Shown here one piece after another: positions 4,304 to 6,342 of a stretch of DNA of 64,000 bases. The notes below the pieces were generated by a model. That model made no database searches. It was not told where the DNA came from and saw nothing but the letters and a program-made list of their open reading frames with translations. Position 1 is the first letter of the stretch; each line of letters begins with the position of its first letter. Made by a program: the position numbers and the translations under genes. Source of the DNA: Candidatus Latescibacterota bacterium (GTDB taxonomy: Bacteria; JAAXHH01); assembly GCA_012270975.1 (NCBI GenBank), contig JAAXHH010000147.1, forward strand, positions 62,001-126,000. Reading direction: 5' to 3'.

Positions 4304-4332
4304 TTCACATACGTACCGGGGTAGGTTATATT
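4304..4332 (+). promoter_or_regulatory. Candidate sigma-70 promoter for the selenoprotein redoxin gene
   Basis: TTCACA (4304-4309) and TATATT (4327-4332) are separated by exactly 17 bases; each matches five of six consensus positions. The expected transcript start, near 4339, lies about 60 bases before the ATG at 4401. Confidence 0.55.
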
Positions 4333-4400
4333 AAAAGGACCGAAACGCAAGCGAATTAAGGGAAACGAGAAGGATGACTTATGAAACGAGGAGGCATGTC

Positions 4401-4976
4401 ATGATACGTGCACTGGCGCGGTGGTGCTTCGCACTGGCGCTGGTCGGCCTGTTGGCGGAATCCGCCGACGCTCAGCCCAGGAACCTGGCTCCGAGATTGG
4501 GCCAGGACGCACCGGAGTTCAGCCTGCAGGACGTCAACGGCGAGACGGTCAACTTCGCCGATTTCAAGGGCAGCAAAAACTTGTTGGTGGTCGTGGACCG
4601 CGGCTGGATAGGCTACTGGTGACCCCTTTGCTTACGGCAACTGGGGCAGTTGCAATCCGATTACGAACGAATAGCGGCACTCGACACGGAACTTCTCTTC
4701 ATCAATCCTGAAGATCTCGACCAGACCAGAGACTTCGTCGCCAAGTCGAAAGTCACGCGGGAAGCACTCTCCTTCCCCGTACTCGCCGATCCGGACCGGG
4801 CCATACCGACCAAGTTCAAGATCCAGAAAACGACCGACAAGGGTGAGGAAGTCATACCCACCGCCTTCATCATCGACAAGGAAGGCGTCCTTCGGTTCAA
4901 GTACGTGGGCTCGGATCCCTTCGACCGGCCTTCGACCGACAGTCTGGTAGAGATCCTGGGTATGATCGAGGGTTAG
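4401..4976 (+). CDS. Exported redoxin (AhpC/TSA family), probable selenoprotein with UxxC active site
   Basis: Read through the in-frame TGA at 4620-4622, this gives a complete 191-residue thioredoxin-fold protein of the AhpC/TSA (redoxin) family. Residues 1-25 form a signal peptide, so it should act in the periplasm. The TGA is residue 74 in the context G-Y-W-U-P-L-C, exactly where relatives have W-C-P-x-C, giving a U-P-L-C redox motif with resolving Cys77. After the TGA the same frame continues with typical family features (V-L-A-D-P-D, then I-P-T-A-F-I-I-D-K-E-G) to a normal stop. The ATG at 4401 is chosen because GAGGAGG lies just before it. A perfect 7-bp hairpin follows the TGA at SECIS-like distance. 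It is expected to reduce peroxides or disulfides. The alternative is a nonsense mutation or sequencing error in a Cys form. Confidence 0.8.
4620..4653 (+). promoter_or_regulatory. UGA codon with candidate bacterial SECIS hairpin
   Basis: The TGA at 4620-4622 is followed by 14 bases and then a perfect 7-bp stem (GCAACTG at 4637-4643, CAGTTGC at 4647-4653) closed by the loop GGG (4644-4646). Bacterial SECIS elements are short stem-loops placed a similar distance inside the coding sequence after UGA, with a G among the first two bases of the apical loop; this one fits. It would be read by SelB carrying Sec-tRNA. No sel genes are present in the window. Confidence 0.7.
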
Positions 4977-5014: not shown

Positions 5015-5267
5015 TCAGGGTTTAAGGTTTCTGATCTCGTCGGACACGAATTCGACCAGGACCTGGGATTCGATCCAAATCTCATAGAGCGGTCCGCCTA
5101 GCCTCGGCCGAAAGCGGTGGTGGAGGCCATGTACTTCCGCCACTGCTTTCAGATGGTCGAGGCTTTGCTCTGTTTCAAGCATAAAATGCGTTGAGTTGAA
5201 GTTCTGCGCTTCTTCGAGCGACGTGTATTCTGCGGCGTATTCACCTGGACAGGTGCTTGATCTTCAT
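5015..5267 (-). pseudogene. Small hypothetical gene, apparently frameshifted near its start
   Basis: On the minus strand an ATG at 5267 opens an 8-codon reading frame (M-K-I-K-H-L-S-R) that stops, while a different frame continues directly with a coherent protein-like sequence (E-Y-A-A-E-Y-T-S-L-E-E-A-Q, then later L-Y-E-I-W-I-E-S-Q) to a stop at 5015. One frameshift would join them into about 83 residues. Without it, the only ATG in the long frame is at 5182, giving 55 residues. It lies 64 bases after the BtrH-like gene on the same strand. I do not recognise the family. It may be a real small gene with a sequencing error or a decaying one; the in-frame TGA does not lead into the conserved frame, so selenocysteine is not an explanation. 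Confidence 0.4.
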
Positions 5268-5331
5268 GTTTTTAGCCTGGTCAGGATGAATAGCTGTTTA
5301 CTGTATTCCGGGCGTTTATTGAAGACCTCAA

Positions 5332-6258
5332 CTATATAGACTCCGCAATACGATCTTCGATCTCCGCCAGTCGTTCGAACAAGCCTTCCGTGCCTTTCCA
5401 ATCTTCCTGCGTGGCGTAGTACTGCGCCAGGCCGTATGACTCGGCTTTTTTTACCATCCACTCCGCGGCTTCCGTTTGGCCTGTCGACTTCATGAAGTCG
5501 GCCGCATCCAGGCAGCGCCGGGCGCCTATCGGAAGGACGAAATGGACCAGCATCCCGGCGAAGGTTTGTGGTGGGCGATTACGGATTACCCCAGCGGCCA
5601 GGCGGAACGCCTTCGATCCACCAAAAAAGACCGGGCCGGAAGGAGCCGCATGAATCAGTTCCCGTGCGTTTCTGAGGGTATCCTCCAGCATTTCATCGGT
5701 CGTTACTTGCCGCTCTTCTTGAAAATCACCGCGTAGCGTATATGCGTTGGTCGCGTAACCGAGTCCAGTGGCATCCCACGCCCGCATGAGATCATCGACC
5801 GGCAGTACCGCGAAAGGATAGAACTGCGGGTCATGCACCTGCACCCGGTCGCCGTCGAGATTCAGAATCACAATGAAATGATCTCCCCCACGCTTCAGCT
5901 TGTGATTCGGGTCATAGGGCAGGAAACCCAGATCCAGCGGACCAAGCAGTACAGGACCTTTCTTCAGGTTTTCCGTCAATGCATCGAGGGCAGCTTCGGC
6001 ATCGTCACCCTGCCATAAGGTACAGTTCCAGCCCAGGATGTTCAGAGCACGGGACAGCCCGCTGTGTGGATTGAGGTCGGCGTGGCTCGGGAAGAACAGG
6101 GGCGTTTCAAACTGCAGAAAAAGGGCGCCGAACGGCATACCTGTCATGCATTCCAGCATACCGGCATCCGGTAGATTGACCATGCCGGCCTGTTTCAGAC
6201 ACATGTGGAGACTGTTGCTGTAGCAATAGTGGCTGTTCCCCGTGTATGCGGTGTACAC
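5332..6258 (-). CDS. BtrH-like papain-fold (C39-like) protein
   Basis: The 308-residue protein resembles the BtrH N-terminal domain family, papain-fold proteins that include the acyltransferase BtrH of butirosin synthesis. A Cys12 (S-H-Y-C-Y-S-N-S-L), His127 (G-G-D-H-F-I-V-I) and Asp143 (V-H-D-P) are placed as a Cys-His-Asp triad. The GTG at 6258 is chosen because a near-ideal GAGAGGAG lies 6 bases before it; a longer in-frame start at 6330 has no ribosome site and would be nearly leaderless from the promoter at 6343-6371. It follows an APH-family kinase gene on the same strand, so the two may modify one small molecule. An alternative role is a peptidase-like protein with an unknown substrate. 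No signal peptide is seen. Confidence 0.65.
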   Translation of the reverse strand: MYTAYTGNSHYCYSNSLHMCLKQAGMVNLPDAGMLECMTGMPFGALFLQFETPLFFPSHADLNPHSGLSRALNILGWNCTLWQGDDAEAALDALTENLKKGPVLLGPLDLGFLPYDPNHKLKRGGDHFIVILNLDGDRVQVHDPQFYPFAVLPVDDLMRAWDATGLGYATNAYTLRGDFQEERQVTTDEMLEDTLRNARELIHAAPSGPVFFGGSKAFRLAAGVIRNRPPQTFAGMLVHFVLPIGARRCLDAADFMKSTGQTEAAEWMVKKAESYGLAQYYATQEDWKGTEGLFERLAEIEDRIAESI

Positions 6259-6264
6259 TTGATT

Positions 6265-6272
6265 CTCCTCTC
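6265..6272 (-). promoter_or_regulatory. Strong ribosome binding site fixing a GTG start
   Basis: The minus strand reads GAGAGGAG, 6 bases before the GTG at 6258. It is the best ribosome site in the region and moves the start of the BtrH-like gene 24 codons downstream of the longest frame. Confidence 0.6.
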
Positions 6273-6342
6273 GCAGCGGTGGCGCTGGGCGTCGGCGGGA
6301 CGGGATATGAAACTCCGTATCGGAGTCCATTTTACAGACAAT

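Follow-up and report, generated by a model that had tools for sequence, protein, structure and literature searches.

The frame at positions 4401-4976 of the 64,000-nucleotide stretch of Candidatus Latescibacterota DNA analysed here (the window) very probably encodes a selenoprotein, a redoxin of the AhpC/TSA fold in which the in-frame TGA at codon 74 would be read as selenocysteine (Sec). As judged by comparison with related genomes, UGA74 is a sense codon. A first-pass annotation had proposed a probable selenoprotein with a U-P-L-C active site, and the proposal is borne out by the presence of the sel genes in the genome, by the TGA found in close homologues and by a conserved hairpin. The features discussed are collected in Table 1.

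Table 1. Positions, within the window, of the selenoprotein gene and its associated features.
Feature	Positions	Strand	Basis
Possible sigma-70 promoter, TTCACA-17-TATATT	4304-4332	+	motif match; genus conservation
Ribosome-binding site GAGGAGG, 6 nt 5' of ATG	4388-4394	+	sequence; genus conservation
Putative selenoprotein gene, AhpC/TSA-fold redoxin	4401-4976	+	frame, Pfam domains, relatives' alignment
Probable signal peptide, 24 residues, ...SADA/Q	4401-4472	+	judged by eye
In-frame TGA, predicted Sec74 in GYW-U-P-L-C	4620-4622 (codon 74)	+	conserved codon in relatives
Predicted SECIS hairpin, 7-bp stem, GGG loop	4637-4653	+	comparison, folding, published SECIS limits

The recoded frame and its relatives

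With Sec at codon 74 the frame specifies 191 amino acids and closes with TAG, the TGA being its only internal stop. Without recoding it breaks into two open reading frames of the ORF list (4374-4622 and 4650-4976), and automatic annotation would plausibly split the gene in two. The Sec-read protein matches the Pfam families AhpC-TSA (PF00578; E 1.2e-24, 87 bits against a cut-off of 26) and Redoxin (PF08534; E 1.9e-20, 73.6 bits against a cut-off of 26.6), so that the single frame with an AhpC/TSA domain, an in-frame TGA and a normal stop is present as first described. Its start resembles a signal peptide when read by eye and export of the redoxin is probable; AlphaFold2 confidence is low at residues 1-26.

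The phylum sample comprises 16 genomes, 12 of them from the same genus (including that of the window) and four others. TGA occupies codon 74 in all 12 genus genomes and the same codon in three of the four others (G012, G014, G015; 47-52% identity), while in the remaining one (G013) the sole TGA redoxin is the more distant L130. Variation affects 110 of 189 codons among the 11 full-length genes of the genus, and codons 72-85 form the longest invariant run (permutation P ~0.002 for an invariant run of at least 12 codons anywhere). This invariance, together with a frame that stays open downstream of the TGA, agrees with the initial view of an intact gene. In a second phylum 82 of 84 genomes have matches at E <=1e-12, and among the matches listed all but three rows contain one TGA. 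Up to 12 redoxin matches per genome occur there at this threshold (among the matches listed), and some TGA redoxin genes lie side by side (L153, L154, L159; G054:C101, G097:C12).

Other residues at this site appear farther away. A scan of database records, in which the best 80 of 431 candidates were examined, returned seven genus records (L026-L032) and 73 further relatives, whose residue aligned with Sec74 is Thr in 67, Cys in five and Ser in one. Cys homologues of the Sec redoxins are encoded in G068 (two, with TGT and TGC), where no tRNA-Sec match was found, and in G086 (one, with TGT), which has tRNA-Sec; the Cys-versus-Sec contrast in G068 is weak, given an assembly completeness of 61% and a selB-like match that, at 195 bits, lies below the cut-off. 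No Cys form was seen in the 15 phylum genomes that carry the subfamily. The alignment at position 74, set as a test of the selenoprotein proposal, therefore came out in its favour, with TGA in all close homologues and Cys, Thr or Ser in distant ones only. The pattern by which selenoproteins are recognised, an in-frame UGA within a conserved frame and aligned with Cys in some homologues, is what these comparisons give.

Upstream of the gene, the ribosome-binding site reported initially is present as GAGGAGG, and GAGGAG precedes the ATG in all ten genus genes examined (of 12). The promoter reported with it corresponds to a possible sigma-70 box, TTCACA-17-TATATT, of which one was found against 0.4 expected in shuffles; its TATATT recurs in 10/10 genus genes examined (of 12). 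The upstream neighbour, a xylose-isomerase-like gene of the Pfam family AP_endonuc_2, is kept in all seven genus loci from database records and in L119. The downstream neighbour (5332-6330, minus strand, BtrH_N domain) holds the same place in three of the seven (L026, L029, L030), L032 ending too early to show it. Comparison of neighbours across these seven loci and L119 gave no operon partner for the selenoprotein gene. Scans of the 64-kb window returned nothing at the Rfam gathering score and no tRNA. A filter for TGA-interrupted frames in the window yielded five candidates including the selenoprotein gene, the other four being unlike protein families by eye; a frame at 5015-5461 on the minus strand (TGA at 5264), also picked by the filter, is probably a chance occurrence or a decayed gene.

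A hairpin downstream of the TGA

The hairpin has exactly the form first claimed, a perfect 7-bp stem (GCAACTG at 4637-4643, CAGTTGC at 4647-4653) closed by a GGG loop (4644-4646) and starting 14 bases after the TGA. The limits quoted for bacterial SECIS elements in PMC13188914 are a loop of 3-9 nt beginning with GG, a stem of 4-16 bp, a distance of 16-37 nt from the UGA and a minimum free energy <=-7.5. All of the corresponding values fall within them: loop 3, stem 7, GG, 21 nt from TGA to loop and -8.8 kcal/mol for 4634-4656. The RNA-fold check suggested in the first-pass annotation gives a divided answer. Folded alone, 4634-4656 adopts the hairpin as its minimum-energy structure (-8.8 kcal/mol, z -3.5, 0/200 shuffles as good) and 4635-4660 gives z -1.9 with 6/200 shuffles as good, but a competing CCCC/GGGG stem forms in four longer stretches (38-65 nt) containing the whole TGA or just its final bases (z -0.6 to -1.2). 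Since the longer stretches fold unremarkably, folding energy is insufficient by itself and comparison is needed.

For this comparison 88 loci were examined, of which ten lack a TGA in the sought motif and three hold two genes, giving 81 TGA rows. Within those ten, the TGA at the site is set in a different motif in L182, L208, L212, L219 and L220; Cys is encoded there in L184, L199 and L200, the TxxU type is represented by L218, and L213 shows a gap. In a fixed register all seven pairs form in 65 of the 81 rows, six in six rows, four in one, three in eight and one in one, and the first two loop places are G in 76. Ten rows lack the fixed-register hairpin: five belong to a UPNS-type subfamily, four to other families, and one is L188. 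The UPNS (UxxS) group (L202, L203, L206, L207, L210) is a TGA subfamily in which any SECIS must use a register other than the fixed 7-3-7 one.

These rows are not independent, since one stem sequence is shared by all 12 genus rows and a single gene appears as both L121 and L152; the TGA rows contain 33 distinct hairpin 17-mers. Compensation is visible in such forms as GCAACUC-GGA-GAGUUGC (L118), GCAGUUG-GGG-CAACUGC (L130) and GCAUCUG-GGU-CAGAUGC (L128). In a covariation set of 64 distinct rows, from which the four belonging to other families were removed, pairing is seen in 93.5% of cells as against 14-50% in slid registers, and both sides have changed in 30 cells compared with 6.6 in shuffles (0/500 as high). 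Pairs showing a double change number four in the same rows against 2.7 in shuffles (36/500 as high), which is not remarkable. RNAalifold predicts no structure for all 64 mixed rows and exactly the 7-bp stem for 16 hand-picked rows (one per lineage, all with at least six pairs).

None of the 73 Thr, Cys or Ser relatives (from the best 80 of 431), whose peptides differ, exceeds five of the seven pairs, and the three nearest Cys homologues, two from G068 and one from G086, form five, four and three. With the peptide held fixed, the chance of seven pairs in a row, estimated for 15 rows, is 0.014-0.086 with even codons and 0.02-0.33 with the codon usage of the window; as it reaches 0.33, single rows prove little. 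A covariance model of the hairpin, run on the genome of the window with 150 of 1035 candidates scored, finds the selenoprotein gene at E 1.1e-8 and the next candidate at 2.8; being built from this redoxin family, the model is blind to other selenoproteins. By these comparative measures, conservation of the hairpin behind the TGA acts at the level of RNA structure, and its form agrees with the SECIS model.

Selenocysteine machinery and other readings of codon 74

The search for sel genes, set beforehand as a test, found selA, selB, selD and tRNA-Sec in the genome that carries the window, which is given as 5.7% contaminated. The tRNA-Sec scores 70.6 bits (gathering score 47) and is called SeC(tca) by ARAGORN; selB (342.6 bits) adjoins it on contig C96, and selA reaches 491 bits. 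The selD match (251.5 bits) lies within an oxidoreductase-SelD fusion, an 835-aa frame (L023, G000:C140:593516-597451) that joins selD to an N-terminal part judged oxidoreductase-like by eye and is of the Cys form, with a CAGCGAKV motif. Ndh-SelD fusions have already been described (PMC2398784). By analogy with the known course of Sec insertion in bacteria, SelB loaded with Sec-tRNA-Sec would bind the hairpin and deliver Sec to the ribosome paused at the UGA.

Among the relatives, no tRNA-Sec was found in G009, G012 and G015, three of the 16 phylum genomes and each with the TGA gene. In the second phylum, under stricter filters than those used for the first, 72 of 84 genomes gave a tRNA-Sec match, and eight of the other 12 carry TGA redoxin rows (among the matches listed). 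Of these 15 genomes in total without a tRNA-Sec match, six, G012 included, have selB above the cut-off. That selB ends 18 bases from the contig start in G012 and 93 bases in G135, the contig edge falling where selC would sit if arranged as in the genome of the window. ARAGORN detected no tRNA around the six selB genes. Six TGA-bearing genomes (G009, G015, G082, G087, G090, G117; 73-87% complete) showed neither tRNA-Sec nor selB above the cut-off.

Three other readings of codon 74 can be weighed against these data. If the TGA were a true stop, the gene would be dead or its product shortened, and TGA is indeed a normal stop in the lineage, ending L107, L113 and L114. The same TGA, however, recurs throughout the 12 genomes of the genus and again in remote relatives, the downstream frame is intact and codons 72-85 are unchanged; conservation of sequence beyond the TGA contradicts a pseudogene, which is highly improbable. 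The normal use of TGA as a stop in genus genes tells in turn against genome-wide recoding to another amino acid such as Trp, a reading known from Mycoplasmoides (PMC12013277). A Sec tRNA with a tca anticodon and selB are present, and some homologues have Cys at the site, so that recoding of this kind is scarcely credible here. That codon 74 was misread in sequencing or assembly is very unlikely, and the least probable account of the codon, since the same TGA appears in the 12 genus assemblies, seven of them records with different prefixes.

Redoxin type and relation to known selenoproteins

The selenoprotein reading leaves the type of redoxin to be considered. In 67 of the 73 relatives (best 80 of 431) the residue facing Sec74 is the Thr of TxxC, and the Cys that follows, the peroxidatic residue of true peroxiredoxins, lines up with Cys77; the classical enzymes have a TxxC site and a conserved Arg. 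At the place of Pro153, or just before it, Arg stands in 69 of 70 Thr rows and Pro at that place in none, whereas most Sec rows (10 of 13) and Cys rows (17 of 19) have Pro there. Three of the Sec rows and two of the Cys rows retain an Arg immediately ahead of that place; the window protein does not, and has Ile-Pro where 69 of 70 Thr rows have Arg, with U in the Thr position. With Sec in that position and Pro153 close to the one held by the Arg, the site looks thioredoxin/TlpA-like on an AhpC/TSA fold. The initial placing of the TGA precisely at the first active-site Cys accordingly holds for CxxC proteins such as TlpA and ResA and fails for true peroxiredoxins, in which that place is the Thr of TxxC.

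Structure and sequence searches point in different directions. The AlphaFold2 model (pLDDT 85.2, pTM 0.80) retrieves Bcp4 first among PDB entries with Foldseek (3hjp; E 3e-14, TM 0.72), and all 50 matches listed belong to the peroxiredoxin family; phmmer against PDB sequences places a thioredoxin-family protein (3kcm) first and ResA next. None of the 13 NCBIfam models at E <=0.01 reaches its own cut-off, the best being SelL-related redox NF040769 at 62.4 bits against 120, below the score for membership; this model is also matched by all 18 aligned subfamily members.

A Sec-dependent peroxidase, the same selenoprotein acting on a hydroperoxide with Sec74 or Cys77 as the peroxidatic residue, is a serious if less favoured possibility. 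The peroxiredoxin-family fold matches headed by Bcp4, the Pfam AhpC-TSA domain, the glutathione peroxidases that place U first in UxxT according to PMC1088965, and the Arg retained before Pro in three of 13 Sec rows, though not in the window protein, speak for it. Both the Thr and the Arg of peroxiredoxins are replaced in the window protein, and its nearest PDB sequences are the thioredoxin-family protein and ResA. With Sec at the Thr place and Pro153 for Arg, exchange of the TlpA/ResA type is favoured over classical peroxiredoxin chemistry, and the protein, as read from its sequence, is more aptly described as a UxxC redoxin than as an AhpC-type peroxidase. Thiol/disulphide oxidoreductase chemistry appears somewhat the likelier function for this UxxC redoxin. 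After export by its signal peptide it would act outside the cytoplasm, where Sec74 may attack a disulphide or a peroxide and form a selenenyl-sulphide with Cys77, which a partner thiol reductant would then reset.

Prx-like UxxC selenoproteins with PF00578 are reported in PMC1088965, PMC2398784, PMC9312934 and PMC13188914, and tables of the latter two list Prx-like thiol:disulfide oxidoreductases with PF00578 and UxxC or UxxU. The window protein resembles these in its AhpC/TSA domain, with PF00578 above the cut-off, in its UxxC motif (U74-P-L-C77, not TxxU) and in the SECIS after the UGA; it differs from them, as described there, in a signal-peptide-like start and in the R-G-W-(I/V)-G-Y-W that precedes Sec. 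Going by the table descriptions, it also shares a Redoxin domain above the cut-off and UxxC with the PF08534 redoxin family selenoproteins (PMC9312934, PMC13188914), unlike which it scores lower for Redoxin than for AhpC-TSA.

SelL-related NF040769 is its best NCBIfam match, yet the score is below cut-off and the motif is UxxC, that of SelL being, as we understand it, UxxU. The Sec peroxiredoxins with TxxU (PMC1088965, PMC13188914) have the same Pfam domain and fold; they differ in carrying Sec at the opposite end of the motif, and the window protein lacks their Thr and Arg. A second Sec redoxin of this TxxU peroxiredoxin type occurs in the same genus (L218, G011:C217:2121-2791, minus strand; FYILDFTPG-TGA-TLQL). 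TlpA/ResA-type reductases have their CxxC at the same site, share Pro at the Pro153 place and provide the best PDB sequence matches, but have Cys in place of Sec, and sequence identity to them is low.

The protein thus appears to belong to the known UxxC Prx-like class rather than to a new kind or mechanism, and R-G-W-I/V-G-Y-W-U-P arguably marks a new subfamily within it. No name for this subfamily was found in the literature passages searched, the passages covered of one selenoprotein text that mentions Latescibacter do not deal with this redoxin family, and no literature joining selenoprotein and Poribacteria was found. It is tempting, if speculative, to suppose that the subfamily, probably exported, is locked to Sec: the conserved peptide QLG(Q/E)LQ, which follows the active site, would be constrained by the SECIS no less than by the protein, and Sec would thereby resist replacement by Cys. 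The same design would then have multiplied in the second phylum, in some cases in tandem.

This is a well-supported selenoprotein subfamily that lies below every NCBIfam cut-off scored, in a lineage for which the closest named records come from Gemmatimonadetes / Candidatus Latescibacterota MAGs. Its unusually clean SECIS, with a fixed register, seven base pairs, a 3-nt loop and compensatory changes, could aid SECIS models and annotation, and the redoxin itself suggests that this lineage employs selenium in a redox protein that is probably exported.
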